From IMG/VR virus record IMGVR_UViG_3300020156_000009, positions 1-47,654 of that record: DNA of 47,654 nucleotides. One strand, written 5' to 3'. Below, in pieces: positions 4,866-43,730 of this stretch. Made by a program: the position numbers and the translations under genes. This DNA is from a virus. Numbering within the stretch: the stretch's first letter is position 1; each line of letters opens with the position of its first letter. The notes beneath the pieces were generated by a model. The model was not told where the DNA came from. It saw nothing but the letters and a program-made list of their open reading frames with translations, and searched no databases.

Positions 4866-4919
4866 GAGGTGACTCCTTCAGGTGTGCCGCGAGTGCGGCT
4901 GGCGGATGCTGACAGGATG

Positions 4920-4949
4920 AGCCTAGCGTCACCTATCAGGTGGTGTCAA
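4920..4949 (-). promoter_or_regulatory. Promoter P1 with 13-bp operator in its spacer
   Basis: Reading leftward: TTGACA (4949-4944), an 18-bp spacer containing CACCTGATAGGTG (4942-4930), then TAGGCT (4925-4920). The -35 overlaps the stop codon of the upstream gene. The predicted RNA starts near GTCAGCATCCGCC (4913-4901) and reaches the clamp-like gene. This is the closest match to a consensus promoter in the set. Confidence 0.8.
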
Positions 4950-5875: not shown

Positions 5876-6072
5876 GATGCGGCCTCCAGCTTCCGAAGTT
5901 CGGCGCGCAGGTGGCGCTCTCCCCGAGCAAAGGCGGTCGCCTGCGAGGGATACCCAGTTCCGGGATACCCTTCGCGCCCGCAGGAGCACGACCAGCCGAA
6001 GCCGCCGCTCGTGTCGAAGGTGGAGAGGCGATGCGTCAGGCGAAGCTTCGCGAGCGCCTCATGTCGGTTCAC
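5872..6072 (-). CDS. Small protein coupled to the methyltransferase
   Basis: 66 aa, ATGA-coupled to the methyltransferase stop at 6069 and GTGA-coupled to the next gene. The centre has a CSC pair with aromatic residues (FGWSCSCGREGYPG), and the C-terminal half is a charged helix. With only two Cys, a zinc site would need His residues or a dimer. Function unknown. Confidence 0.7.
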   Translation of the reverse strand: MNRHEALAKLRLTHRLSTFDTSGGFGWSCSCGREGYPGTGYPSQATAFARGERHLRAELRKLEAAS

Positions 6073-7517
6073 GAGAGCACCTCGCGAAGGATCGCCTCAG
6101 CGAGTCGAGGCGGAACAGCGTTCCCAACTTGCAAGAACTTGTTGGTCTTCGTGATCGGCTTCGTGCGGCCCGTCTTCGGGTCGACGAACTCGGCATCCCA
6201 GATGAAGTCGGCGGGGTAGCTCTGAAGCGCTGCCGCCTCCTCGACGCTGACGCGCGTCGCGCGCTCCATTTGCTTCTCGTGCGGCTCGCGCCAGCCACGT
6301 TCAGGGATGCGCGGATCACCCGCGACCGTCGGCGACGGCAGGTCGGGATCGATCGTCGTCTCGCGCGGGCCGTCGCCCACCATCTCCTCGATGACGGCGC
6401 GCCCATGGCGTCCGAACACCTCGGCGCCGCCCGTCGCCGCTCCCCCGCCCGTTACCGTCGGGCCGCCTGCCGAGTAGTTGCTGCGCATCGCGATGCCGAA
6501 GCCGGGCTGGGAGTTGCCTCCGTCGCCGCCGAGGACGGTAAAGGCGGGATCGAGCACGTCGCGGCCCGAGCGGTCACCATGGCGCTCGATCATGCCTTTG
6601 CCCATCCCAGTGCGCACCTGCTCCACCTCGCCGCGCTCGATCCACTCGCCGTGATTCTTCTCACGGTTGATGGCGGCTTTCGCGCCGGATCCGCCGACGC
6701 CCTCGGCGCGGCCTACGGCGTTGCCTGCCGTGATGAACGGACGCTCGGTCATGCCCCAGCCGAGCGCCTCGGCCATCGACACCCAGGGCGGAACGCCGTC
6801 ATCGAGCCGCTGCGGATCGCGTGAGTAGTAGCGGGAGTGCGTGGGCGTCGGAGCCTTCGCCTCCTTGCCGTCGGCGCGCGCGATGAGGATCGCCCGCTTG
6901 CGCGTCTGCGGGACGCCGTACATCTCGGCCTGAAGGTTGCCCGTCCAGACCGAGTACCCCCAGCGCCGCATCTCCTCGGCGCATCGCTCCCAGACTGGGA
7001 GGACGGGCGGCACCTGCTCGAAGACGACGTAGGTCGGCGTGTCCCTGGCGACGTGCGCCAGAGGGGTGAGCACGAGGGCGATACGGTCGTCGCCGTGGCC
7101 CGCGGCGAACTCGCGCAGGCGGTCGGCATCCAGGTAGGCGCGCGTCTCGATCGCCTCCAGCACGTCGTCGAGCGCCTTCCTGCCCGCACCCTTGCCCGCC
7201 ATCGAGAACGACTGGCACGGCGGCGACGCGATGAGCAGATCGTAGACCTCGGCGAACGTCCAGCCCTCGGCGAGCAGGCGAGCCGCCTCGGTCGCCTGAT
7301 GCTCCTCACGCTCGGCGAGCAGGGCGTCGACTTTCGCCGCATCCTCTGCGAGGCCATCCCACACGTCGGAGTAGATCGTCCGCATGCCATTCGCCGCGCG
7401 GATGGCGCGAGCCTCGGGCATGATCTCTACGCCGTACTCCTCGACGCCGAGGCGCTGGCAGGCGACGCCCCAGCCCGTGCCCGCGAACAGGTCCAGTGCG
7501 ACGATGCGCGGGGTCAT
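6069..7517 (-). CDS. DNA (cytosine-5) methyltransferase
   Basis: 482 aa C5-methyltransferase that transfers a methyl group from S-adenosylmethionine to cytosine. Motif I is ALDLFAGTGWG (residues 7-17). Motif IV is SPPCQSF with the catalytic Cys101, and FEQVP (166-170) stands for the usual ENV. QTRKRA (204-209) is motif VIII, and NAVPP near the C-terminus is motif X. About 200 residues of Gly-rich sequence lie between motifs VIII and IX and should hold the target recognition domain. No restriction enzyme lies beside it, so it is an orphan enzyme that probably protects phage DNA from host restriction. Target sequence unknown. Confidence 0.93.
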   Translation of the reverse strand: MTPRIVALDLFAGTGWGVACQRLGVEEYGVEIMPEARAIRAANGMRTIYSDVWDGLAEDAAKVDALLAEREEHQATEAARLLAEGWTFAEVYDLLIASPPCQSFSMAGKGAGRKALDDVLEAIETRAYLDADRLREFAAGHGDDRIALVLTPLAHVARDTPTYVVFEQVPPVLPVWERCAEEMRRWGYSVWTGNLQAEMYGVPQTRKRAILIARADGKEAKAPTPTHSRYYSRDPQRLDDGVPPWVSMAEALGWGMTERPFITAGNAVGRAEGVGGSGAKAAINREKNHGEWIERGEVEQVRTGMGKGMIERHGDRSGRDVLDPAFTVLGGDGGNSQPGFGIAMRSNYSAGGPTVTGGGAATGGAEVFGRHGRAVIEEMVGDGPRETTIDPDLPSPTVAGDPRIPERGWREPHEKQMERATRVSVEEAAALQSYPADFIWDAEFVDPKTGRTKPITKTNKFLQVGNAVPPRLAEAILREVLS

Positions 7518-7782: not shown

Positions 7783-8052
7783 TCACACCTCGCCCAGGTA
7801 GGCGATGGCACCGTGACCGAGGAAGGCCGTCGGAGTGTGATAGTCGGTCTCGACCACGCGACCGTTGCACCAGAGCGACGTCTCGTTCAGGACGTCGACC
7901 GACTCGACGCGGAAGGTGTTGATGACGGGAATCTCATAGATGGCCCCGTCGCGAACCTGGGCGGCGGCGATGCGGACCTTCACGAGGTCGCCGATCTTCA
8001 CGTCGGTGCTCGGGTCGATGGTGCCGATCTCGATCTGCTCGGTGCTGTTCAT
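7783..8052 (-). CDS. First gene of the methyltransferase operon; hypothetical
   Basis: 89 aa, starting MNSTEQIEIG, with AGAAGGAG before the ATG at 8052. The sequence IGDLVKVRIAAAQVRDGAIYEIPVINTFRVESV looks like a small beta-barrel (SH3-like). Transcribed from promoter P2, whose leader is a 66-bp perfect copy of that of the gene at 10119-10421. Divergent from the RHH regulator, with which it shares a 121-bp intergenic region. Confidence 0.75.
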   Translation of the reverse strand: MNSTEQIEIGTIDPSTDVKIGDLVKVRIAAAQVRDGAIYEIPVINTFRVESVDVLNETSLWCNGRVVETDYHTPTAFLGHGAIAYLGEV

Positions 8053-8057
8053 GGTGG

Positions 8058-8123
8058 TGCTCCTTCTGGAGTGGCGGATGCTGACGTGACCGACTATACC
8101 CCACCTATTAGGTGACGTGCAAC
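8058..8123 (-). repeat. 66-bp duplicated promoter-leader cassette (copy A)
   Basis: Identical over 66 bp to 10427-10492. It contains the ribosome binding site region, the GTCAGCATCCGCC leader motif, the -10, the 13-bp operator and the -35. The coding sequences on either side do not match. Confidence 0.95.
8093..8122 (-). promoter_or_regulatory. Promoter P2 with perfect 13-bp palindromic operator
   Basis: Reading leftward: TTGCAC (8122-8117), an 18-bp spacer with CACCTAATAGGTG (8114-8102), then TATAGT (8098-8093). The operator arms CACCTA/TAGGTG are perfectly complementary around one central base. It drives the gene at 7783-8052 and the methyltransferase beyond. Confidence 0.8.
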
Positions 8124-8149
8124 TCCTCGTTTCGGATGGTCTACGTCGT

Positions 8150-8166
8150 CGCCTATCAGGTAAGGT
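8150..8166 (+). promoter_or_regulatory. Promoter P4 and operator of the RHH gene (leaderless)
   Basis: Operator-like CGCCTATCAGGTA (8150-8162) overlaps a -10 of the form TAAGGT (8161-8166), exactly 7 nt before the ATG at 8174. The -35 is poor. No ribosome binding site fits in the 7 nt, so a leaderless mRNA is expected. The operator overlapping the -10 fits autorepression. Confidence 0.6.
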
Positions 8167-8173
8167 GGTGGGC

Positions 8174-8380
8174 ATGACCGACCAGCCGAAGCGCAAGCCC
8201 GCCGGCGCTGCCGTGCCTGGCGCCGTCGACCGCCCCGTGAACTACCCCAAGACTCTCACGCTGATGGTGAGCCAGGGAACGTTCGACGCGATCGCCGAGG
8301 AGAAGTTGCGCACGGGTCGCTCGAAGGGTGAAATCGCTCGCGAGTGGCTGGAGTCCGGTCGCCCGAGCCAGGACGCATGA
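8174..8380 (+). CDS. Ribbon-helix-helix DNA-binding regulator
   Basis: 68 aa. Residues 1-25 form a basic, Pro-rich arm. Residues 27-62 match the CopG/Arc-type ribbon-helix-helix pattern: strand TLTLMVS, helix GTFDAIAEEKLRT, turn GRS, helix KGEIAREWLES. Such proteins dimerise, insert the paired strands in the major groove and bind short palindromes. It is the only recognisable RHH regulator seen and lies between two copies of the 13-bp operator (8102-8114 and 8150-8162), so it is the leading candidate to bind all sites of that family. The start is 8174, because the -10 lies 7 nt upstream; an in-frame ATG at 8117 would sit upstream of the promoter. Confidence 0.8.
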   Translation: MTDQPKRKPAGAAVPGAVDRPVNYPKTLTLMVSQGTFDAIAEEKLRTGRSKGEIAREWLESGRPSQDA

Positions 8381-8451
8381 CGCTTCTGCTCGTGCTCATC
8401 GCGTGCTTCGTCGTCGGTTTCGCCTGGGGCTACGTCCGCAACCTGCGCTAG
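8377..8451 (+). CDS. 24-codon membrane micro-ORF
   Basis: ATGA overlap with the stop of the RHH gene, then 24 codons and TAG at 8449. The peptide is almost entirely hydrophobic (LLLVLIACFVVGFAWGYV) with a basic end (RNLR), a plausible single transmembrane helix. Its stop codon interlocks with the stop of the convergent gene at 8448. Coupling to the regulator and clean hydrophobicity support expression, but no homology can be claimed at this length. Confidence 0.45.
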   Translation: MTLLLVLIACFVVGFAWGYVRNLR

Positions 8452-10122: not shown

Positions 10123-10421
10123 AGGGCGACCTCGCACATCTCGTCGTAGGCGATCCCGAGGCGGTCGCACACTTCATCGGAGATCGACCACCAGACCAGC
10201 GGCGTGATGTCGGGCATCGCCTGCCAGTTCTCGACGAGGCGCTGGTTCTCCATCGCCCCCTGAATCGCGAGGTCGATCTCGGTCAAGGTGAACGGCTCGC
10301 CCGTCTCAGGGTTGACGACCGCGCGCTCGCGCAGGCAGTCGTAGGTCTTCTCGGTCTCGTCGCGCCAGAACAGGTACGCGATGGCTTCCTGTTCACAGGT
10401 GGCGGGGGTCTTGCTGGCCAT
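10119..10421 (-). CDS. First gene of the P3 operon; hypothetical
   Basis: 100 aa, starting MASKTPATCE at 10421, with AGAAGGAGC upstream. A helical, acidic protein with several Trp residues (PLVWWSISDEV). No domain recognised. It is transcribed from promoter P3, the exact copy of P2, so it and the gene at 7783 should be expressed at the same time. Confidence 0.8.
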   Translation of the reverse strand: MASKTPATCEQEAIAYLFWRDETEKTYDCLRERAVVNPETGEPFTLTEIDLAIQGAMENQRLVENWQAMPDITPLVWWSISDEVCDRLGIAYDEMCEVAL

Positions 10422-10426
10422 GAGGT

Positions 10427-10492
10427 TGCTCCTTCTGGAGTGGCGGATGCTGACGTGACCGACTATACCCCACCTATTAGGTGACGTGCAAC
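10427..10492 (-). repeat. 66-bp duplicated promoter-leader cassette (copy B)
   Basis: Exact copy of 8058-8123. A perfect 66-bp match between two regulatory regions whose coding flanks differ points to a recent duplication or gene conversion. Confidence 0.95.
10462..10491 (-). promoter_or_regulatory. Promoter P3 with perfect 13-bp palindromic operator
   Basis: TTGCAC (10491-10486), an 18-bp spacer with CACCTAATAGGTG (10483-10471), TATAGT (10467-10462), all identical to P2. It drives the operon 10421 to 8448, which holds the small membrane and helix-turn-helix proteins. Confidence 0.8.
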
Positions 10493-10507
10493 ACCTGGAT
10501 ACGAGAA

Positions 10508-10607: not shown

Positions 10608-11963
10608 CTAGACGTCATGCACCGAGCGCACGATGTCGAGGCGATGGCGGGCGCGCGTCACCGCGGTATAGAGCCACTGGCGGCCCTGCTCCTCGGCGGC
10701 CAGCCTGCCGTCGCGGCGAGCGGTCATCGAGATGAGGTCGCTCGACTCGTCGATCAGCAGCACGCTGCCCCACTCCGACCCCTGCGACTTGTGCACGGTG
10801 ATGCCGAATCCCCATGCCCACGCCGGGTCGCTCGATCCCCAGGAGCGATCCAGGTACGCCTGCTCGGCTTTGTGCCCGGCCAGCGTGGCGATCGGCGACG
10901 ACACCTCGTGCTCGGCCCCGTCGTCATCCGCGACGACCAGCCGGAGCCACTCCTCGCTGACGGCATCCGCGCCGAGCACGGTCACCTGCTCGCCGTTCAT
11001 CCACTGGCGAACCTCAGGGTCGGGCGACTTCGTGTTCTTGATGCAGATCAGCCGGTCGCCGGGCGCGGGCATCATCGGGTCGCGGCGGCCGAGACGGCGA
11101 CGCACCTCGGCGTTCACCCGCTCGCGGGTCGCGTTGCGCCAGCAGAGCACCTGGTCGTACTCCTCCAGCGAGAGAAGGCGCTTCGGCTTCGTCAGCGGCG
11201 CCGACGGGAACGACGACTTCCTGATCTCGGTCGCGAGCGCCAGCACGGGCGAGCCGCCCGCCTGGCGGTGCACCTTCGTCAGCAGGTGGTGCGGATGCCC
11301 CATCGCCTGAAGCGAGCGCTGCGCCTTCACGGGCGGTAGCTGCGCAGGGTCGCCGACGAACACGAGACGCGAGCCGGTGCGCAGGAGGTCGGCGGCCACC
11401 TGCTCCGAGACCATCGACGCCTCATCGATCAGCAGCACCTGCACCGCGGGCCAGCCCGACTCCTCGTAGTGAGCGATCGCGCCGGCGGCATTGAACGCGA
11501 GTTCGTACCGCTTCGATGTGCGCAGAGCCTCGGCCCGCTCGGCGAACTTCTTCGGCAGCTTCTTGGCGAGCTCGGCCCAGTCGTCGTCGGTCGGCGTCTC
11601 CGGCGTCGCGATGTCGATCGCCACGAGCGCCGACAGCGCGCGCGGCTCGCGGTGCTCCACCTCCTCGAAGAAAGGTTCCCACTGCTCGCGCCACTTGGAG
11701 CGCTCCCGCTTTGACGGCGTGTAGAGGTAGGAGTGGATCGTCGCGGCGCCGTGCAGACCTTTCGCGCGCAGGACGCGCGCCGCCTTCCCGGTCGGGGCGA
11801 GCACCTGCACGCTGACGCCCTGACGCTCCATCGCGCGGATCGCCTCGGTGGCGACCACGCTGGTTTTCCCCGTGCCCGCGTAGCCGTGCAGGCGGGTGAC
11901 GGCCCGGTCGGTCGAGGCGATGTCGACGATCGCGTCGAGCTGCGCCTCGGTTGGCCGGATCAT
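10608..11963 (-). CDS. SF1 DNA helicase, RecD/Dda-like
   Basis: 451 aa superfamily 1 helicase that should unwind DNA 5' to 3' using ATP. Walker A is GYAGTGKTS (27-35). Walker B is LLIDEAS (177-183), followed by GDPAQLPPV (204-212) as motif III and VHRQ (231-234) as motif IV-like. TVHKSQGSEW and YTAVTRAR near the C-terminus are motifs V and VI. The protein is about the length of T4 Dda and lacks the N-terminal domain of bacterial RecD2. It is coupled to the small genes upstream of it and is probably part of the replication set with the primase-helicase. Confidence 0.93.
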   Translation of the reverse strand: MIRPTEAQLDAIVDIASTDRAVTRLHGYAGTGKTSVVATEAIRAMERQGVSVQVLAPTGKAARVLRAKGLHGAATIHSYLYTPSKRERSKWREQWEPFFEEVEHREPRALSALVAIDIATPETPTDDDWAELAKKLPKKFAERAEALRTSKRYELAFNAAGAIAHYEESGWPAVQVLLIDEASMVSEQVAADLLRTGSRLVFVGDPAQLPPVKAQRSLQAMGHPHHLLTKVHRQAGGSPVLALATEIRKSSFPSAPLTKPKRLLSLEEYDQVLCWRNATRERVNAEVRRRLGRRDPMMPAPGDRLICIKNTKSPDPEVRQWMNGEQVTVLGADAVSEEWLRLVVADDDGAEHEVSSPIATLAGHKAEQAYLDRSWGSSDPAWAWGFGITVHKSQGSEWGSVLLIDESSDLISMTARRDGRLAAEEQGRQWLYTAVTRARHRLDIVRSVHDV

Positions 11964-12884: not shown

Positions 12885-13341
12885 CGTCTTCTCCCTGGTC
12901 TGCGTTCACGGCGGCGGCCAGGTTGGCGATGCGCTCCCGGTAGCGCACCTCGTTGCGGGCGCGGCATTCGGCATGGACGCGCGCGAGGGTGCCGTAGCGG
13001 GTCGACCCGTCGACCTCGATCACCTGGGGCTTGCCTTCGCTGTCGCGTGAGCGCGGATCGACCAGGGCGGGGAAACTGCTCCCGCCGACGTCGAACGGCA
13101 CCCAGCGCAGGCGACGCAGGCGCTTCGCCTCCTCCAGCATCTGGAGCGCCCAGGCGCGGAGTTCCCGCTCGTTGCAGGCGACGGTCGTCGAGGTGCGATG
13201 ATTCAGGGGGATGCGAATCTCGATCCCTGGGGAGACACGTGTGTCACTAGGGGCGAACGTGATCGGGCGCACCTGGGTGCGCATCTTCTCGCGGATTTCT
13301 TCGAGCAGGTCATCGTCACTGCTGCTGGCGGATGCATTCAT
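12877..13341 (-). CDS. Hypothetical protein, first gene of the helicase operon
   Basis: 154 aa, starting MNASASSSDD at 13341. A -10 of the form TATGAT (13355-13350) lies 8 nt from the ATG, so the message is probably leaderless. An acidic N-terminus is followed by a beta-rich region and a C-terminal helix with several Arg (ARVHAECRARNEVRYRERI). No domain recognised. Divergent from the coiled-coil gene at 13405. Confidence 0.75.
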   Translation of the reverse strand: MNASASSSDDDLLEEIREKMRTQVRPITFAPSDTRVSPGIEIRIPLNHRTSTTVACNERELRAWALQMLEEAKRLRRLRWVPFDVGGSSFPALVDPRSRDSEGKPQVIEVDGSTRYGTLARVHAECRARNEVRYRERIANLAAAVNADQGEDDA

Positions 13342-13344
13342 AAT

Positions 13345-13366
13345 CCCTAATCATAGGTGATAGACT
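13345..13366. promoter_or_regulatory. Divergent promoter pair with variant operator
   Basis: A leftward -10 TATGAT (13355-13350) and a rightward -10 TAGACT (13361-13366) sit back to back over CCCTAATCATAGGTG (13345-13359). That sequence has the CCTA/TAGGTG arms of the 13-bp operator with a longer centre. It may be a weak or changed operator serving both genes. Confidence 0.5.
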
Positions 13367-13404
13367 CGTGCCCTGCAAGATCGTACCCCGAGAGGAATCC
13401 CCCC

Positions 13405-13611
13405 ATGTCGCTGCTCTCCAAGCTCCAGGCCGCCAACGTGAAGCTGGCGCGAACCGTGAAGGCGCGCGATGAGCAGGCCGAGGCCGAGGCCCGACGCGAT
13501 CAGGCGTATGCGAAGCTGGCCTATGCGATCGACCAGGCGCTCGACGGCGTGACCCTCACGAGCGACCAGCGCGCCGATCTCATCCGCATGATCAACGGCC
13601 AGCCGCTCTGA
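13405..13611 (+). CDS. Small coiled-coil protein
   Basis: 68 aa, starting MSLLSKLQAA, with GAGAGGAA before the ATG. Residues 5-50 are a continuous charged helix (ARTVKARDEQAEAEARRDQAYAK), likely a coiled-coil; the rest resembles a short helical hairpin. One of only three plus-strand genes within the leftward arm, convergent with the primase-helicase, whose stop is 1 bp away. Unknown function; a regulator or adaptor is possible. Confidence 0.7.
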   Translation: MSLLSKLQAANVKLARTVKARDEQAEAEARRDQAYAKLAYAIDQALDGVTLTSDQRADLIRMINGQPL

Positions 13612-17300: not shown

Positions 17301-17323
17301 TCACCTATCAGGTGGTGTAGGGT
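17294..17323 (+). promoter_or_regulatory. Promoter P5 with 13-bp operator (leaderless)
   Basis: Weak -35 TCACAC (17294-17299), operator CACCTATCAGGTG (17302-17314), -10 TAGGGT (17318-17323), GTG start 6 nt later at 17330. A second operator copy, CACCTATCAGTTC (17335-17347), lies inside the first codons, 33 bp from the first, about three helical turns. Confidence 0.7.
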
Positions 17324-17329
17324 GGAGCG

Positions 17330-17908
17330 GTGACCACCTATCAGTTCGCGCATGAGTTCCTCCGGCCCGTGCCCTATCACGCTCTTCTGCCCGAGTCGCT
17401 GGCGGCTGTCGAGGCGATGCAGAGCGTCGTCGCATCCAGCCGCATCGATCGGCTGATGGCGTCGATCGTGACCGACCACGGAAACCCCCGCGTCGTGCCG
17501 TTCGATGGCGACGTCGTGGCGCCGACGGCCCGCCTGATGCTCGCGAAGGCGGAGCATGCGGGTTTCACCGCCCAGCTGCTGGAGTTGCCCCGCGGATGCG
17601 TCGTGGAAGGCTACCGGCGACGGGACGACGGGATGCCCGTCTGCTTCCGCGCTCGCTGGCGCATCCATGTCGCGGGGTCAGGAGCGGTCAGCCGCCCCGC
17701 CGACGGGGCTTCATGGCATGAGCCGTGGCGCTACGAGATGGGCCGTGATGATCGCCCTGTCGGGATCAACAAGCAGGATCGCGTGGCGCTCGCAGGAAAG
17801 CGCGGTGCGGGGCTTGCAGCGGCGCACATGCGCCTCGTGGCGTCACCCTGGGGGATGCCCATCGATCACACCGAACTGAAACGGCGGATCGCGCAGTACG
17901 ATACCTGA
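17330..17908 (+). CDS. Hypothetical protein opening the late arm
   Basis: 192 aa from the GTG at 17330, 6 nt after the -10 TAGGGT. No ribosome binding site is visible, as expected for a leaderless message. The first part is helical and the second half is beta-rich and basic (LELPRGCVVEGYRRRDD, CFRARWRIHV). A Gly-rich stretch (AGKRGAGLAAAHMRL) is near the end. No recognised domain. It carries a second operator copy in its first codons. Precedes the small terminase; may be a packaging or late regulatory protein, but that is inference. Confidence 0.75.
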   Translation: MTTYQFAHEFLRPVPYHALLPESLAAVEAMQSVVASSRIDRLMASIVTDHGNPRVVPFDGDVVAPTARLMLAKAEHAGFTAQLLELPRGCVVEGYRRRDDGMPVCFRARWRIHVAGSGAVSRPADGASWHEPWRYEMGRDDRPVGINKQDRVALAGKRGAGLAAAHMRLVASPWGMPIDHTELKRRIAQYDT

Positions 17909-18358: not shown

Positions 18359-18383
18359 CGTCACCTAATAGCTAGCGTAGAGT
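18355..18383 (+). promoter_or_regulatory. Promoter P6 with 13-bp operator
   Basis: TTGACG (18355-18360) overlapping the terS stop codon, a 17-bp spacer with CACCTAATAGCTA (18362-18374), TAGAGT (18378-18383). The leader starts near GTCTGCATCCGCC (18390-18402) and has GAAGGAG before the ATG at 18422, the same layout as P1-P3 and P9. Confidence 0.8.
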
Positions 18384-18421
18384 CGAAGAGTCTGCATCCG
18401 CCGCTCACGAAGGAGCACCCC

Positions 18422-20493: not shown

Positions 20494-22152
20494 ATGATGG
20501 ACCCCGCCGACGCTGAGCTCATCGAGCTGATCCGCACGACGCCCGATGAGCTGCTCGACCGCGTGGTCGCGTCGCTGTCGGATGCCGAGGTGGCGCTGCT
20601 GGAACAGCACTGGGCGTCGATGGGCCGCGAGCAGAAGGCGATCCCCGCATCGCCCGCGGAGCAGGCGCAGGAACTCTCATCCGAGTACCGCATCGTGCCA
20701 CATCTCGCCTACCTGTCGGAGCGCCTGGCCGCCGCGGTGAACGACGTCGAGCGCGGCATCGAGCGGAAGCTTCTCGTGTCGATGCCGCCGCGCCACGGGA
20801 AGACCGAGATGACGTCGGTCTATCTGCCGGTGTGGCTCCTGCGCCGCAACCCGCAGACGAAGATCGGCATCATCTCGCACTCGCCTACCCTGGCGACGAT
20901 GTGGGGTCGTCGCGTGCGCCGCATGGTCGAGCGCTACGGCGACAGCATCGGGCTGTCGATCGCGCCGGATGCGGGGGCGGTTGGCGAGTGGGAGACCCCC
21001 GAGGGCGGCAGCGTGATGAGCCGCTCCATCGGCCAGGCTCTCGCCGGCGTCGGCTTTAACGTGCTGATCATCGACGACCCTACGCGCGACTTCGCGGCGG
21101 CCCACTCGAAGGATCAGCGGCAGAGCGTCTGGTCGTGGTGGACGGCGAACGCGATCACCCGACTGGAGCCGCCCTCCCTCGTGATCGTCATCCAGACGCG
21201 CTGGCACGAGGACGATCTGACGGGCCGCCTCCTCTCCACCGAGCACGAGGGCGACCCCACCGAGTGGGAGCAGATCATCATCCCGGCGATCGCCAGTCAC
21301 GACCCGAAGAAGGGCGAGACGGACGTGCTGGGCCGTGAACCCGGCGAGCCGCTGCTGAGTCCGCTCGTGCCGAACGAGACGCCGGAGCAGGCGCTCACCC
21401 GGTTCGACAAGCTACGCCGCTCGGTCGGCTCCTACGCCTGGGCCGCGCTCTACCAGCAGTCGCCGTCACCGGCCAAGGGCGCGATCTTCTCCACCGAGTG
21501 GTGGCGCTTCTGGTCGACCGACCCGGCGCACGTCGCCGGCGACGGGAAGACGATCCTGCTCGACCGCGACCGGCTGCGCGATGGCCGCCTCATCGACTCC
21601 TGGGATGCGACGTTCAAGGGCACCGACTCCAGCGACTATGTGGTCGGGCAGCGCTGGGCGAGATGCGCCGCCGACTTCTTCCTGCTGGAGCAGTCGCGTG
21701 CGCGCCGGTCGTTCACCGAGACGCTGGAGGAGCAGCGCGCATTCTTCGGTCGCGGCATCGGCGCCGAGCTGACCAGGCAGCATCTGGTGGAGGACAAAGC
21801 GAACGGCCCCGCCATCATGGACGTGCTGCGCCGCGAGGTGCCCGGCCTGAAGCCGGTCGAGCCGCGAGGGACGAAAGAGGCACGCGCCCGCGCCATCACG
21901 CCGCCGATCGAGTCGGGCAACGTCTTCCTGCCCGACCCTCGGATGCCCGGCTTCGAATGGGTGCGCGAACTGATGGACGAGGCGCGCACCTTCCCGAACG
22001 GCGAGCATGACGACCAGGTGGATGCAATGAGCCAGGCGCTCGATCACCTCCTCGAAGCGTCGCCCGTCGTCGTGCACATGCCGAACGCCGTCGCTGCCGC
22101 GCAGGCGCGTCGCGGCCCCGCCTCCTTCCGCGCTGCTCTCGGCGGGCGCTGA
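20494..22152 (+). CDS. terL: Terminase large subunit
   Basis: 552 aa packaging motor. The ATPase domain has Walker A PPRHGKT (98-104) and Walker B NVLIIDDP (189-196). The RNase H-like nuclease domain begins near residue 365 with DSWDATFKGTDSSD (D368, D371) and ends with an acidic GEHDDQVDA near 506-514. It drives DNA into the procapsid and cuts concatemers. The start is the ATG at 20494; the message is leaderless, with the operator-bearing promoter P7 immediately ahead. Confidence 0.97.
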   Translation: MMDPADAELIELIRTTPDELLDRVVASLSDAEVALLEQHWASMGREQKAIPASPAEQAQELSSEYRIVPHLAYLSERLAAAVNDVERGIERKLLVSMPPRHGKTEMTSVYLPVWLLRRNPQTKIGIISHSPTLATMWGRRVRRMVERYGDSIGLSIAPDAGAVGEWETPEGGSVMSRSIGQALAGVGFNVLIIDDPTRDFAAAHSKDQRQSVWSWWTANAITRLEPPSLVIVIQTRWHEDDLTGRLLSTEHEGDPTEWEQIIIPAIASHDPKKGETDVLGREPGEPLLSPLVPNETPEQALTRFDKLRRSVGSYAWAALYQQSPSPAKGAIFSTEWWRFWSTDPAHVAGDGKTILLDRDRLRDGRLIDSWDATFKGTDSSDYVVGQRWARCAADFFLLEQSRARRSFTETLEEQRAFFGRGIGAELTRQHLVEDKANGPAIMDVLRREVPGLKPVEPRGTKEARARAITPPIESGNVFLPDPRMPGFEWVRELMDEARTFPNGEHDDQVDAMSQALDHLLEASPVVVHMPNAVAAAQARRGPASFRAALGGR

Positions 22153-25322: not shown

Positions 25323-27131
25323 ATGATCACTGCAAAGAGTCTCCTCGCCGCGATCGACGCCAAGCGCGCCGACGCCGGCCTCACCTACAAGGACGTTGCC
25401 GAGTCCATCGGCTTCCACTCCGCTCTCTTCACCCGGCTGAAGGGCGACCTCCTCCCCTCCCAGACGAACATCGACGCGCTGGTCGAGTGGCTCGGCGACG
25501 ACTACTCGGCCAACTGCTCCGCCTGCGACGAGGCCGCCGCCCTGGCCGCCGACGGCGAGAAGACCCTCTGGCCCTTCGAGGTCGGCGACCGTGTGCGAGA
25601 CGCGAGTGGGCGTGTCGGCGCCGTCACGAAGGCAACCTACACGCATAGCACGGACGCCTACACCATGACGGTGAAGCTGGACGACGGCACGGTCGAGACC
25701 TTCGCCGAGCAGGACATCGAGCACGACGACATCAACATCGCCGCCGAGGCGACCAACGAGGCACCCGCGGGTGCGCCGGTCTTCGCGATCAACGCCGTGC
25801 GCGCGCACCTCTCCGAGACCGAAGACCCCGAGACGAAGGCCGCCGTGTCACGGGTGCGCGAACTGCTCGCCGAGGGCGCTGTCGGCGTCTCGGTGCTGCT
25901 GGATATCCACCCCGACGACGCCGCGATCATCGGGAAGGCCGAGGAGAACTGGGCCGCCCAGCAGGGCGAGGACATGAAGCCGATCCAGGAGTTCCTGCCG
26001 ACGCTCGACTGGAAGCCGCGCCAGCGTGTGCGGCACACCGCGATCGTCGACACGCCCGCCTTCTCTGACGCTCGCCTGGCGATCGGCGAGGATGGCTCGC
26101 TCACGGGCGCGGTCACCTTCGAGGGTATCTACACGGGCGATGTGCGCTACAGTGCCGACCCCGAGATGATCGACCTCGCGGCCTCGCGCGTGCCGTCGCC
26201 GATCATCTGGGACCGCGCCGACGGCGACCACTCGGGCATGACCGTGGGATACATCGAGGAATTCGCCCGCGTGCCCGTCGAGGGTGAAGTCGCGGGCCGT
26301 CCCATCCTCGACGACGAGGCGATCACCGCATCGCTCGCGCCACTGTCGATGCCCGCCGACTACTTCGCCACGTCGATGCCGACCGGCCCCGAGCCGCTGC
26401 GTATCAGCCAGCCGGACGAGAAGGGATTCCGCACCATCCGCGGCCTGGCGGCGTCCAAGGGCGTCTGCCACCGTTCCGCGATGGCGTGCTTCACGTTCCC
26501 CGACGACCCCGACCCGAAGCTCAGCCACTTCCACACCGGCACCCTGCTGCGTCTCGACAACGGGAAGGATATCCGCGTCGGCGCCGTGACGTTCGGCGGC
26601 CACCACCTCGACCCCGCGCTGGCCAAGGAGGGCGTGAAGATCGACCAGGCGAACAACTACCGCGACAACGCCTCGACGGTGTTCGCGCTGGTGCGCGCCT
26701 GGCCGACCCGCTTCGGCCTGATGATCGCCGGAGTGGTGCCGCCCGACGTGAGCGAGGCGCAGGTAACGCGTGCTCTGGCCTGCGCTCCGAGCGTCGAGCT
26801 CTGGCCGCGCAACGGCGACGGGAAGCGCACGCTGATGGGGATTCACATCGTGCCGCGTCCGGCGTGGCCGGTGATGGCATCCGTCGGCAGCACCACCGTG
26901 GCCGTCAGCGACGAGGCGATCACGCTCGAAGCGGAGATCGAGGAGGAGACGGGCGAGCCGAACGACGGCATGCCCGTGCTGGAGGCGTTCGACCTGAGCG
27001 AGATCACCGACGCGATCGCCCTGCTGAGCGCGAAGCTCGACGCGCTCAGCGAGACCGCATCGACCATCCTCGCGCTGACGCCGATTCCCGACGACATCGA
27101 CGACCTTCTCGCGGAAGACGATCCGGCGTGA
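25323..27131 (+). CDS. Capsid maturation protease fused to an N-terminal DNA-binding domain
   Basis: 602 aa in three parts. Residues 5-58 look like an XRE/Cro-type helix-turn-helix (LLAAIDAKRADAGLTYKDVA, SIGFHSALFTRLKGD). Residues about 85-137 are an SH3/KOW-like barrel (GDRVRDASGRVGAVTKA, then DDGTVETF). From about 230 comes a phage prohead-protease fold with strands GAVTFEGIYTGD and the segment DGDHSGMTVGYI, whose His303 is the likely catalytic His as in HK97/U35-type proteases. A Glu/Asp-rich C-terminal helical part could act as scaffold. The start (MITAKS) is placed 7 nt after TACAAT. It lies just before the major capsid gene. Confidence 0.8.
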   Translation: MITAKSLLAAIDAKRADAGLTYKDVAESIGFHSALFTRLKGDLLPSQTNIDALVEWLGDDYSANCSACDEAAALAADGEKTLWPFEVGDRVRDASGRVGAVTKATYTHSTDAYTMTVKLDDGTVETFAEQDIEHDDINIAAEATNEAPAGAPVFAINAVRAHLSETEDPETKAAVSRVRELLAEGAVGVSVLLDIHPDDAAIIGKAEENWAAQQGEDMKPIQEFLPTLDWKPRQRVRHTAIVDTPAFSDARLAIGEDGSLTGAVTFEGIYTGDVRYSADPEMIDLAASRVPSPIIWDRADGDHSGMTVGYIEEFARVPVEGEVAGRPILDDEAITASLAPLSMPADYFATSMPTGPEPLRISQPDEKGFRTIRGLAASKGVCHRSAMACFTFPDDPDPKLSHFHTGTLLRLDNGKDIRVGAVTFGGHHLDPALAKEGVKIDQANNYRDNASTVFALVRAWPTRFGLMIAGVVPPDVSEAQVTRALACAPSVELWPRNGDGKRTLMGIHIVPRPAWPVMASVGSTTVAVSDEAITLEAEIEEETGEPNDGMPVLEAFDLSEITDAIALLSAKLDALSETASTILALTPIPDDIDDLLAEDDPA

Positions 27132-27227: not shown

Positions 27228-28802
27228 ATGTTCACCATTGAGGACGCCCAGGCGGCCCTGGCGGCGGTCGGCACCGAGTCGGCCCCGACCGTCGAAGTGC
27301 TGGAGCAGGCGCGGGACGCCTTCGTCAGCGCTGCACGCACCGCGAAGGACGCCGGCGACAAGCAGGCTCTCGCATCCATGCTGGAGGCCATCAAGGTCAC
27401 CCGCTCCGCCATCGACGAGGCGCAGGCCAAGCTGGCCGCCGAGCGCGAGGAGCTCGAAGCGCTCACCGCCGACATTCCCGAGCTGCGCGACGAGGCACCC
27501 GCCGCCGACGCTGCCGCTGCCGTGGTCGACGACCCGGCCCCCGCCATGCTCTCGGTCTCCGAGGCCGTGGCCCGCCTGGGCCTGGCGACGCCGGGCAAGA
27601 AGCGCGAGGAGGTCGCCGTGGTGACCGAGCCGCGTCAGAAGCTCGTGCTCGCCGGTCAGGAGCGTTCCGACGCTTCCTGGGCGGACCTGGGCAACGCCTT
27701 CTCCAAGCAGACCTCCTCGATGATGCGCGACGGTCGCACGGTTCTGATGAGCGTGCAGACCGATTTCGCGAATCGTCTTACCGGTCGCACCGGCGAGAAC
27801 ACGCGACTCCTCGACGACCTCGCTCGCCGCGCGGGTGAGGAAGCAGTCGTCGCCGCCGGCGGTTGCTGCACGATCGCCGAGCCGATCCGCGACATTCCGA
27901 TGCTCGCGTCCACGGCCCGCCCGATCGCGGACGCGCTGCCCACCGTCGGCGCCTCGGCTGGCGCGGTCACCTTCTACCCGCCCGTGTGTCTCCCCCAGGG
28001 TGGCATCGCGACGTGGACCTGCGTGCAGGATGCCGCGGTCGACCCCGCGAACCCCGCCACCTGGAAGCAGTGCGAGCACATCGAGTGCGCCGAGCCGCTC
28101 ACCGAGACGGTCGAGGCGATCTACAAGTGCCTCACCATCGGGAACTTCCAGCAGAAGTTCTCGCCAGAGCGCTGGGACGCCATCCTCGCGGCCACGTCGG
28201 CAGCGCAGGCTCGCCTGGCCGAGCAGACGCTGTTCAACAAGATTGCGAACAGCGCCAACGTCACCGACCACACGGTCACCGACACCGGCTCGGTCTACGC
28301 GACCACGCTGCGCTCGCTCCTGCTGGCATGGGCGACCATCCGGCAGAACCAGCGCTACGAGGGTCGCCGCGCCCGTACCATCCTCCCCTCCTGGGTGGAG
28401 GATGCCGCCGCAATGGACATGATCACCCGCGCTGCCGAGCGAGGCCGTCAGGCCGAGCAGGACTCGCTGGAGACCCGCCTCGCGGCTGCCGGGATCGACG
28501 TCATCTGGTCGCCGGACATCAACCCGATCGAGCCTGCCGGTCAGGTCAACGGCCCGCTGACGAACTTCCCCGCGACGTTCGACGCCGTGCTGTTCGTCGA
28601 CGGTGGCGTCTTCCGTCTCGACGGCGGCGAGCTCAACATGGGAACGGATATCCGTGACCACGACCTCAACCGCCAGAACAACGTCGCGGCCTTCGCCGAG
28701 ACGTTCGAGACCGCGGTCGTTCGCTCCTGCGACTCGAAGCACCTCACCATCCCGGTGAGCATCTGCGGCGTGAACAGCTGCCCGACCGTTCCCGCACCGT
28801 AA
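27228..28802 (+). CDS. Major capsid protein with N-terminal scaffold-like helix
   Basis: 524 aa, HK97-type capsid protein by position and composition. CAGGAGGA precedes the ATG. Residues about 1-90 form a long charged helix (delta/scaffold domain, e.g. AQAKLAAEREELEAL), with a linker to about 145. The rest has beta-rich capsid sequence, including TILPSWVEDAAAMDMI and RDHDLNRQNNVAAFAETFE near the end. It contains ten Cys (GGCC, PPVCLP, KQCEHIECAEP, SICGVNSC), very high for such a protein. Cleavage by the upstream protease near the linker is expected. Confidence 0.9.
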   Translation: MFTIEDAQAALAAVGTESAPTVEVLEQARDAFVSAARTAKDAGDKQALASMLEAIKVTRSAIDEAQAKLAAEREELEALTADIPELRDEAPAADAAAAVVDDPAPAMLSVSEAVARLGLATPGKKREEVAVVTEPRQKLVLAGQERSDASWADLGNAFSKQTSSMMRDGRTVLMSVQTDFANRLTGRTGENTRLLDDLARRAGEEAVVAAGGCCTIAEPIRDIPMLASTARPIADALPTVGASAGAVTFYPPVCLPQGGIATWTCVQDAAVDPANPATWKQCEHIECAEPLTETVEAIYKCLTIGNFQQKFSPERWDAILAATSAAQARLAEQTLFNKIANSANVTDHTVTDTGSVYATTLRSLLLAWATIRQNQRYEGRRARTILPSWVEDAAAMDMITRAAERGRQAEQDSLETRLAAAGIDVIWSPDINPIEPAGQVNGPLTNFPATFDAVLFVDGGVFRLDGGELNMGTDIRDHDLNRQNNVAAFAETFETAVVRSCDSKHLTIPVSICGVNSCPTVPAP

Positions 28803-33933: not shown

Positions 33934-33959
33934 CCGACGTCGCCTGATAGGCGTATGAT
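33931..33959 (+). promoter_or_regulatory. Promoter P8 with 13-bp operator (leaderless)
   Basis: Weak -35 TGACCG (33931-33936), 17-bp spacer with CGCCTGATAGGCG (33941-33953), -10 TATGAT (33954-33959), then 7 nt to the ATG at 33967. It overlaps the previous stop codon. Confidence 0.7.
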
Positions 33960-39799: not shown

Positions 39800-42556
39800 A
39801 TGAGCTACGACTTCTCCATCGCCGGGCAGTACTCCGGTCGACCCGCATACGATCTGTACTTCTACATTCGTCGCGACCAGACCGACGTCACGAACAACCG
39901 TTCCTCCTACGCCTGGGAACTGCGCGCCCGCAACCCTTCGGGGTCGAGCGCCACCTTCGCGCTCGACTGCTATAGCTGGGCCGTGAACGTCGGCGGCCAG
40001 GTCACGGGCGGATGCCACAACCTCGACTTCCGCGGTGGTCAGGCGTACATCGTGCTGGGCAGCGGGACCACGGGATGGTACGGTCACGCCGCCGACGGCA
40101 CGCTGAACCTGCTCGTCGGAGCGAACCACGGCCCCGCTGGCGTCTTCGGCACCGCGCACCCGGCCGACCAGTACTTCCCGACCGACCGCATCCCGAAGCC
40201 GCCGGGCACACCCGCCACCCCCACGCTCGACAGCCGCACCACCACGTCGGTCTCCTGGAACTTCACCGGCGTGTCCGACACGGGCGGCTCGCCGATCACG
40301 AAGTACACGCATCAGATCGCGTCCGACTCCGGCTTCTCGTCGGTCATCGCCACCTTCGACGACAACAACCCGCCGGCGACGCGGACGGGCCTCGCGGGCG
40401 GTACGCCGTACTGGGTGCGCTATCGGGCAGAGAACGCGATGGGCGTCGGCCCGTGGTCTGCCGCGCTCCAGATCACCACGCTGAGCGGCCTCCCTGCTGC
40501 GCCCGTGATGTCGGCGCCGAGCAGCATCCTGTCGACGAGCATCAGCACTTCGTGGTCGGCACCCGACGACAACGGCTCACCCCTGGCGGAGTACCAGACC
40601 GAGCGCGCGACCAACTCCACCTTCACGACTGGCGTGGTCACCGTTTCGCGGAGTGTGCTCAACCGGTCCTACTCATGGACGGGCCTCACGAAGGCGACGC
40701 GCTACTACTTCCGCACACGCGCCCGTAACGGCAACGGCTGGGGGCCGTGGTCAAACGTCGTCAACGCGACCACCCTGGCGACGGTGCCGAGCACGCCGCC
40801 CAACCTCACGCTAGTCAGTCGCACCACGACATCGATCACCATCCGGCGCGGCACGCCTGCCGATGACGGCGGCTCGGCGATCACCTCCTACGAGTTCCAG
40901 CGCGCGACCAACACGGCCTTCACCACGGGGCTGAGCACCTGGTCGTCGTCGGCGACCGACCAGACCGCCTCGGGCCTCACGCCCGCGACGTCGTACTACT
41001 TCCGCTACCGCGCCGTGAATGCGGTCGGATCGTCGGCGTGGTCGGCGACCTTCACGGCGGACACGCTGCCCGCGACGCCGCCGGGGATGACCGTCACGCC
41101 GTCGATCGACGGTACCAGCGCGACGGTCACGCTCTCTCCGCCCGACGGCTCCTCGTCGGTCACCTCGTACCGCGTCGAGCGTCGCGTCGCCGGCACGACT
41201 ACGCCCGTCACAACGCACAACACCACCACGTCTCCGCTGGTCGTCCAGCCGATGACGCCGGGCACGGTGTGGGAGTGGCGAGCCTCGGCGTTCATCGGCA
41301 GCTATCAGACGCCGTGGACCGCCTGGGTGACCCGCGCCCAGCCGAAGCCGAACACCTCGCCCGGCGACTACTTCGACGGCTCGACGCCGGCGCGTACCGA
41401 TGTCAGCTTCGCCTGGCTCGGGACGGTCAACAACTCGGTGTCGGAGACTCGCGGCGTCGGTGTCGAGGGATGGCTTGCTGCCGGCGGTTCCGCCGCTGCA
41501 CGTCCTCGACTTCAGCGCATCACTGGCGCGCGGTTCGGCACCTACGCCGCGCGAGCGATCGCGATCGCTGACACGACCGTCGACAACGGAATCACGCTCG
41601 GGATGGGTGATACGGCCCCGTATCGCGCCGCGGTGGCTGAAGGCGGTAACTACGTCGGATCGATGTATGTTCGCCCTTCGCGTCCGCAGCGGCTCATCGC
41701 CCAAATGTTCTGGTACGACGTCGGCGGGACCAATCTCGGCGGCGTCAGTGGGACGGCGATGCTCGTTTCGAGCACCACCTCGTGGACCCGCCTTACTGCT
41801 ACAGGCGTAGCCCCAGTAGGTGCCGCCAGTGTACGCGTGCAGGTGCGCGATCTGACGGGAACAGGCTTCTCCCCCTGGCTGACGGGTGAATACCTCGACG
41901 GCGACGCGGTGATGGTCACGATCGGCAATCGCGAGTACTTCGACGGGTCGACGCCTGACGACGCCAACTGGGACTACTCCTGGCTCGGCACGCCGAACGC
42001 CAGCGTCTCGAAGGCAACCGCGCAAGACCCGGCAGCATTCGATCCCCTCGCAGACCCGAACTGCCCGCCGCCGCCTGCGCCGCCGCGCCCGCCGGCGATC
42101 GTCGACCCCTGCATCGCGGCTGGCGACCTCTGGCGCCGGTACTGGGCGATCATCCCCGACGAGGAGATTCCGACCTACCTCGACGCGGTGATCAGCTTCA
42201 CCCTGACGACAGCGGAGTTCCCTGCCGAGCAGGTGCGCATCCGCGTGTGGGAGAACCCCGAGAACCTTCCGCCCGAAGAGTTCGCTGGGACGACGCCGCT
42301 CTCGGAGCAGATCATCTCCTACATGCCCGCCCACACCACGCTCACGATCGACGGCGTGGCGCAGCGAGTGACGGCATCCGTCGATGGCCAGGGCGAGATT
42401 CCCGCCGACCGACTTCTCTACGGTGCGAACGGTCTCCCCGCCTCGTGGCCGGTGCTCTCGTGCGGAGAGGATTACCTCGTCAGCTTCGACGTGCCTCTCG
42501 ATGCACCCGACGGTAACCTGAGCATCGGAACCAGCCTGACTGAGAGGACGCTCTGA
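39800..42556 (+). CDS. Minor tail protein with fibronectin type III repeats
   Basis: 918 aa with TAGGAGGAG before the ATG. A beta-rich N-terminal domain (about 1-130) is followed by four fibronectin type III units (about 134-515), recognisable by P..P, W..P.D, Y.....R..N..G.G.WS and ..T patterns. Two YFDGSTP domains follow at about 523 and 713, each with a Trp-containing strand (FAWLGT, YSWLGT). The final part after a Pro-rich hinge is another beta domain. Fn3 and carbohydrate-binding units fit contact with the host surface. Confidence 0.9.
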   Translation: MSYDFSIAGQYSGRPAYDLYFYIRRDQTDVTNNRSSYAWELRARNPSGSSATFALDCYSWAVNVGGQVTGGCHNLDFRGGQAYIVLGSGTTGWYGHAADGTLNLLVGANHGPAGVFGTAHPADQYFPTDRIPKPPGTPATPTLDSRTTTSVSWNFTGVSDTGGSPITKYTHQIASDSGFSSVIATFDDNNPPATRTGLAGGTPYWVRYRAENAMGVGPWSAALQITTLSGLPAAPVMSAPSSILSTSISTSWSAPDDNGSPLAEYQTERATNSTFTTGVVTVSRSVLNRSYSWTGLTKATRYYFRTRARNGNGWGPWSNVVNATTLATVPSTPPNLTLVSRTTTSITIRRGTPADDGGSAITSYEFQRATNTAFTTGLSTWSSSATDQTASGLTPATSYYFRYRAVNAVGSSAWSATFTADTLPATPPGMTVTPSIDGTSATVTLSPPDGSSSVTSYRVERRVAGTTTPVTTHNTTTSPLVVQPMTPGTVWEWRASAFIGSYQTPWTAWVTRAQPKPNTSPGDYFDGSTPARTDVSFAWLGTVNNSVSETRGVGVEGWLAAGGSAAARPRLQRITGARFGTYAARAIAIADTTVDNGITLGMGDTAPYRAAVAEGGNYVGSMYVRPSRPQRLIAQMFWYDVGGTNLGGVSGTAMLVSSTTSWTRLTATGVAPVGAASVRVQVRDLTGTGFSPWLTGEYLDGDAVMVTIGNREYFDGSTPDDANWDYSWLGTPNASVSKATAQDPAAFDPLADPNCPPPPAPPRPPAIVDPCIAAGDLWRRYWAIIPDEEIPTYLDAVISFTLTTAEFPAEQVRIRVWENPENLPPEEFAGTTPLSEQIISYMPAHTTLTIDGVAQRVTASVDGQGEIPADRLLYGANGLPASWPVLSCGEDYLVSFDVPLDAPDGNLSIGTSLTERTL

Positions 42557-42557
42557 G

Positions 42558-43730
42558 ATGGTCGACGAGACCGACTGCGTGACCGTGCACACGATCGCGA
42601 TTCACGATCGCGGCGGAAAGCAGCGCGTGGCATCCCTCGTGAAGCTGGCGAGCATCCAGTGGTCACGGCAGCGGTCGGAGTTCACGCAGGCGACGGTCAC
42701 CATCAGCGCCGCCAACTGCGAGAGCCAGGTATCCGAGCTCGACGCCATCGAGGCGGATCGGCACGAGCTCGTCGTCTTTCGCGGGAGCAACCGCGTCTGG
42801 GAAGGGCCGATCCGCGAGGTGCGCTGGCTGTCGAACCGCGTGGAGATCGTCGCCGACGACATCGGCGCCTACATCGACAACAGCATCTGCTCGAAGGCGT
42901 GGCCCGGCCCCGAGGGGGGCGGCCAGCCGTACATGACCGAGCGCGCCCGCGAGATCATCACCTACGAGCTTACGACGTCGTACCAGATGGACGTCGGCCT
43001 CACCGTGCCCCAGATGGTCACCGCCACCCGGTGGGAGCAGCAGACGCCGCCCGCGAACGTGCTTCCCTATCTCGACGTGCGCGCCTCGACGGGCGTCGGC
43101 GGCCTGCTCACCACCGCCGAGGTTGAGCCGTTCCAGATGATGGTCGGCGAGCACCTGCGCAACCTCGCGCGCGGCGGCCTCGACTTCACCGTCGTGGGCC
43201 GCTCTCTCGTGGTGTGGGACTCGGCGACGCCGCTCGGACAGGTGCGACCGCTGACCGAAGCGGACTTCGTGGGGGAGATCGCTGTCGTCGCGTCTGGCCG
43301 CGACCTGGCCGCGATCGCGCACATCGTCGCGCCCGCGGGCGGCGGCGAAGAGGACGCGCCTCCCGTCGTCGGCAACGCCGGAGCGCCGGATGCCTACTAT
43401 GGCCCGTGGACTCGCCTTCTCACCCGCGAGGATGAGGGAGAGTCGGAGCATGAGCCTGACATTCGCGTGCTCAACACGCAGGCGCGACGCATGCTGGCGG
43501 GCCGCCTCCCCGTGCCCGTCGAAATCCGCGCCGACACGGGCCTGCGTCTCTCCTCTGACCTGACGATCGACGACCTGGTGCCAGGCGTCATCCTGCCCGT
43601 GCGCGCCGTTCTCAACACTCGCCCCGTCGCGCAGGATCAGGTGCTCGACAAGGTGACCGTGAACGAAACCGCCGACGGCGAGACGATCACCGTCGAGCTG
43701 TCCCCCGTCGGAACCGTGAGGGCGCTCTGA
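42558..43730 (+). CDS. Minor tail protein (hub or baseplate)
   Basis: 390 aa, starting MVDETDCVTV. The pattern VKLASIQWSRQRSEFTQATV, RHELVVFRGSNRVWEGPI, then IVADDIGAYIDN resembles tail-associated hub proteins that follow the distal tail protein in siphoviruses. A helical centre follows, and the end (VLNTRPVAQDQVLDKVTV) is beta-rich. No catalytic motif. Start with GAGAGGACGC upstream. Confidence 0.75.
   Translation: MVDETDCVTVHTIAIHDRGGKQRVASLVKLASIQWSRQRSEFTQATVTISAANCESQVSELDAIEADRHELVVFRGSNRVWEGPIREVRWLSNRVEIVADDIGAYIDNSICSKAWPGPEGGGQPYMTERAREIITYELTTSYQMDVGLTVPQMVTATRWEQQTPPANVLPYLDVRASTGVGGLLTTAEVEPFQMMVGEHLRNLARGGLDFTVVGRSLVVWDSATPLGQVRPLTEADFVGEIAVVASGRDLAAIAHIVAPAGGGEEDAPPVVGNAGAPDAYYGPWTRLLTREDEGESEHEPDIRVLNTQARRMLAGRLPVPVEIRADTGLRLSSDLTIDDLVPGVILPVRAVLNTRPVAQDQVLDKVTVNETADGETITVELSPVGTVRAL

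Follow-up and report, generated by a model that had tools for sequence, protein, structure and literature searches.

Arc of phage P22 is a small, phage-made ribbon-helix-helix (RHH) repressor that regulates a phage promoter as well as its own expression; it works mainly at one promoter, through a longer operator. In archaeal viruses, SvtR (SIRV1) and F55 (SSV1) each bind a number of viral promoters, their own among them (PMC5569661). The Cluster O mycobacteriophages (Corndog) carry a conserved 17-bp palindrome repeated through the genome, together with predicted leaderless genes (PMC4351075), and in the Cluster A mycobacteriophages one repressor serves many stoperator sites across the genome (PMC9283540). 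The start-associated sequences of Cluster K are a 13-bp motif found just ahead of gene starts (PMC3203893). For Microbacterium phages, a full-text search of the open literature found no paper on promoter, operator and repressor together, and their transcription control appears to be little described.

The DNA analysed here (the window), 47,654 bases long and 67.9% GC, is a virus record that represents a phage genome; its two termini carry identical copies of a 127-bp repeat. The nearest annotated relatives that we found are the Microbacterium phages SM23 and FuzzBuster, the latter a member of the Hodgkinviridae, which are described as lytic Microbacterium siphoviruses (PMC12451628), and helicase searches in IMG/VR yielded no further relatives. 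Pfam identified a cytosine methylase and a primase-polymerase among the window proteins, and PHROGs an exonuclease. All evidence for a regulon described below is drawn from these three related genomes.

The 68-residue product of the ORF at 8174-8380 has homologues in the same place and orientation in both relatives: an unannotated ORF in SM23 (20629-20829; 83% identity in alignment) and FuzzBuster gp72 (42514-42738; 79%). Residues 7-29 are invariant across the three phages. Synonymous changes prevail among the codon differences from the relatives (19 to 8 and 20 to 10), so that, judged by its sequence, the ORF is very probably a real gene. The annotated start of gp72 precedes the start shared by the three phages by 12 nt and falls within the proposed -10 element. 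As the sequence-only reading had noticed, the gene runs against its surroundings: in the window it lies on the plus strand, and the recognisable genes of the block around it, a methylase (6069-7517) and a helicase (10608-11963), lie on the minus strand. Its stop codon is overlapped by a hydrophobic 24-codon ORF (8377-8451) that is absent from SM23 and FuzzBuster. Searches of 50,697 phage records and of IMG/VR returned no homologues beyond those in SM23 and FuzzBuster; one genome match was discarded as chance, the matched stretch reading like part of a larger enzyme with no RHH-like sequence around it.

The product is probably a CopG-type RHH protein, an assignment that we hold with moderate confidence from several individually weak but convergent lines. 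PF01402 (RHH_1) is the sole Pfam family matched by the SM23 homologue (E 0.01, 16.2 bits; 18.1 bits for the core alone), at scores below the curated cut-off of 20.5, and this homologue is the only RHH_1 match in the SM23 genome (E 8.7e-4); the window protein itself matched nothing in Pfam, PHROG or NCBIfam. A profile of the three sequences aligned with CopG over residues 26-61 with no gap (hhalign P 4e-4), scoring above all 300 CopG shuffles and 166 decoy ORFs; Arc, a true RHH protein, failed to align to this profile. The AlphaFold single-chain model of the window protein places helices at residues 34-46 and 51-61, preceded by a strand-like stretch, at low confidence (pLDDT 66, pTM 0.34) and with no strand called. 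Foldseek with this model gave no RHH match, returning only a UBA domain (E 7), and the best structural match in VIA-align, Rv0298 (Z 2.6), was too weak to count. We make the assignment because the sub-threshold RHH_1 match, the ungapped CopG alignment and two predicted helices in the right places agree with one another.

The candidate operator is the 13-bp palindrome CACCTRWYAGGTG, which occurs in perfect form four times in the window, six times in SM23 and six times in FuzzBuster, where about none would be expected, with imperfect copies besides. The form CACCTATTAGGTG / CACCTAATAGGTG occupies 8102-8114 and 10471-10483, and variants of it lie at 4930-4942 and 17302-17314. Within two mismatches, and counting both strands, the window holds 10 matches against 0.06 expected from dinucleotide-preserving shuffles. 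As a rule, RHH dimers occupy subsites shorter than this and work two at a time, and a palindrome of 13 bp would more naturally hold two of them; on these general grounds the first description, which gave palindromes of 6-13 bp as typical sites of RHH dimers, is corrected.

When promoters were predicted from sequence and ranked blind to the palindrome, the operator was found in most of the top-ranked ones: six of eight in the window, six of seven in SM23 and all six in FuzzBuster (hypergeometric 1e-6, 6e-8 and 3e-7, respectively). It sits mostly in the -35/-10 spacer, starting 16-17 bases before the -10 in nearly all top-ranked operator promoters, and its presence in several predicted promoters is what would be expected of a phage repressor acting on many promoters. 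One further promoter in SM23 (26811) and FuzzBuster (49230) has a near-perfect site overlapping its -10 (SM23 26806-26811, FuzzBuster 49225-49230), near a gene for an RNA-binding protein; the SM23 promoter sits immediately upstream of a tRNA gene. At the counterparts of the 46932-46944 promoter in both relatives, the operator is perfect. The gene at 17330-17908 is probably leaderless. In each of the three phages, most operator promoters are in addition followed by the leader motif GTCAGCATCCGCC, exact or in variant form; besides the copy listed in Table 1, it stands in the window at 10442-10454, 4901-4913 and 18390-18402. A 92-bp promoter module comprising operator, -10, leader motif and ribosome site is duplicated at 8043-8134 and 10412-10503, with 90% identity between the copies.

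Table 1. Features of the candidate regulator gene and of the operator-bearing promoters; positions are those of the window.
Feature	Position	Strand	Context
RHH-like protein (P0001), 68 aa	8174..8380	+	ORF from ATG 8174 to TGA 8380
Proposed -10, TAAGGT (TATGGT in both relatives)	8161..8166	+	spacing to the ATG exactly 7 nt in each of the three phages
Degenerate operator CGCCTATCAGGTA, 11/13	8150..8162	+	own promoter of the RHH gene; conserved in three phages
Perfect operator	8102..8114	-	spacer of leftward promoter, -35 TTGCAC 8117-8122, -10 TATAGT 8093-8098
Leader motif GTCAGCATCCGCC	8073..8085	-	just downstream of operator promoter
Perfect operator	10471..10483	-	spacer of leftward promoter almost identical to that at 8102
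Perfect operator	4930..4942	-	spacer of leftward TTGACA-18-TAGGCT, ahead of block with exonuclease gene
Perfect operator	17302..17314	+	just before -10 TAGGGT 17318-17323, then GTG 17330
Imperfect operator CACCTATCAGTTC	17335..17347	+	just inside gene 17330-17908
Imperfect operator CACCTAATAGCTA	18362..18374	+	spacer of TTGACG-17-TAGAGT
Imperfect operator CGCCTGATAGGCG	33941..33953	+	abuts -10 TATGAT, 7 nt before ATG 33967
Operator CAGCTATCAGGTG (minus strand)	46932..46944	-	spacer of TTGCGC-18-TAGACT
Promoter region without operator	13336..13361	.	best candidates TTGCAG-17-TATGAT (minus) and TTCATA-18-TAGACT (plus)

At the RHH gene itself, all three phages have a perfect operator in the leftward promoter upstream of the gene and a degenerate copy 48-49 bp away, at the gene's own promoter. 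The gene had been placed between two operator copies; this is correct for those at 8102 and 10471, but on the upstream side this imperfect site lies nearer. The degenerate copy ends AGGTA in all three phages, touching the TAAGGT or TATGGT box, and in the window it overlaps the proposed -10 by 2 bp. An operator at the regulator's own promoter, here a degenerate one, is what would be expected of a multi-promoter repressor, and the site fits weak autorepression, much as first suggested from its overlap with the -10. Because the -10 lies so close to the ATG in all three phages, the mRNA is probably leaderless, with a start site deduced from the promoter sequence.

Not every promoter carries the operator. 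The divergent region at 13.34-13.36 kb, which has good promoter candidates, is free of it, as are its counterparts in SM23 (27972-28033) and FuzzBuster (50553-50621), and among the structural genes the majority of promoter candidates likewise have none. Regulation by the RHH protein would therefore extend no further than most early promoters. The original claim of a single master regulator is too strong for this reason, and also because conserved proteins without a recognised domain could be regulators that Pfam and PHROGs miss. One of these may be the true reader of the operator, a protein of unknown fold, with the RHH-like protein regulating only its own neighbourhood or doing something else. 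Several conserved proteins lack a recognised domain, including the product of the plus-strand ORF 13357-13611, but a scan of about 40 window proteins against Pfam, ten of them also against PHROGs, gave no credible DNA-binding regulator domain, the HTH_3 family had no match, and the RHH gene is the one that adjoins the conserved operator pair; we regard this alternative as unlikely. The ORF 13357-13611 lies within the leftward block, is 66-69% identical in both relatives and matches no credible family. What stands of the sequence-only reading is an RHH-like protein, conserved operators linked to promoters and a site at the protein's own promoter, with binding of the protein to the operator putative and the protein tied to the site by its position.

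The perfect operator is absent from the first 50 kb of each of three distant Hodgkinviridae, MO526, Nicole72 and Pulchra, and an RHH_1 match is absent from their full records; this joint absence weakly supports the pairing of protein and operator. It also bears on the idea that a host transcription factor binds the site and is exploited or evaded by the phage. The sites do lie in host-type sigma-70 promoters, but the lack of perfect sites in those 50-kb stretches of related phages and the conservation of the own-gene site beside a phage RHH gene make a host factor quite improbable. Outside these genomes, the combination of operator and leader motif was found nowhere in IMG/VR. Forty IMG/VR contigs with the operator in promoter frame were rejected as further examples, each having one site in the same kind of conserved context and no RHH homologue. 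The conserved stretch, with its single CACCTAATAGGTG in many freshwater phage contigs, resembles a gene junction and is unrelated to the system described here.

In our view the RHH protein is likely to repress most of the early promoters and, to a lesser degree, its own, with early shut-off and not lysogeny as the outcome. Such a shut-off is a better fit than a master switch of the lysogeny type because the Hodgkinviridae are described as lytic (PMC12451628) and no integrase was found: the integration functions expected alongside a temperate-phage lysogeny repressor gave no match in the window to PF00589 or PF00239, the Pfam families for tyrosine and serine integrases. On this model, the operator promoters would fire with the host sigma factor after infection, and the small CopG-type repressor would be made from its own promoter, probably on a leaderless mRNA. 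Its dimers, probably two per site, would bind CACCTRWYAGGTG, which in most strong promoters lies within or beside the -35/-10 spacer, and keep host RNA polymerase off, so that the accumulating protein shuts the early promoters; the weaker operator touching its own -10 would cap the repressor level last.

Activation of the same promoters by the RHH protein is conceivable, given that certain RHH proteins work both ways, AmrZ for example being an activator as well as a repressor (PMC3325190). The operator promoters, however, already have good -35 and -10 elements with mostly 17-18-bp spacers, and the site is placed where polymerase would be blocked, which leaves activation highly improbable. Least credible of all is an antitoxin role. 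In its favour, antitoxins are common among RHH proteins, Rv0298, the weak structural match, being one, and the ORF at 8377-8451 overlaps the RHH stop codon. We set this reading aside since that ORF is missing from SM23 and FuzzBuster, and an antitoxin would leave the operators at promoters across the genome unexplained.

Repression by the RHH protein, if true, gives a function to a hypothetical protein that is unannotated in SM23, makes its regulon readable from sequence, and provides a lytic phage family with a testable model of early shut-off. The fuller proposal is that, in a lytic actinophage lineage, one very small RHH repressor shuts nearly all early promoters in graded order through a promoter cassette of 13-bp palindrome and leader motif, its own leaderless gene bearing a weak site; this we advance tentatively, at slightly less than an even chance.

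Like P22 Arc, the protein described here would be a small phage RHH repressor acting on phage promoters and on its own expression; it differs in that its site lies in many promoters, whereas Arc has a longer operator and does not align to the profile. SvtR, AvtR and F55 of archaeal viruses are likewise virus-encoded RHH proteins, but they act at archaeal promoters with imperfect or tandem repeats, and F55 keeps lysogeny (PMC5569661), whereas here one short palindrome lies in -35/-10 spacers. The Cluster O palindromes number more than 30, most of them not near promoters and with no regulator assigned (PMC4351075), in contrast to the 4 to 6 perfect copies found here, in promoters and with a candidate regulator. 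The Cluster A system has a monomeric repressor and asymmetric sites that also stop elongation, and serves temperate-phage immunity (PMC9283540). The Cluster K motif resembles our leader motif in position but differs in sequence, and is not described as joined to a palindromic operator in a promoter spacer (PMC3203893). As far as the papers found tell, none of these systems pairs a regulator of the RHH type with a single short palindrome in most strong-promoter spacers of a lytic phage. Arc and the SvtR, AvtR and F55 proteins are the closest in kind, and the Cluster O palindromes and Cluster A stoperators are the closest in layout among actinophages.
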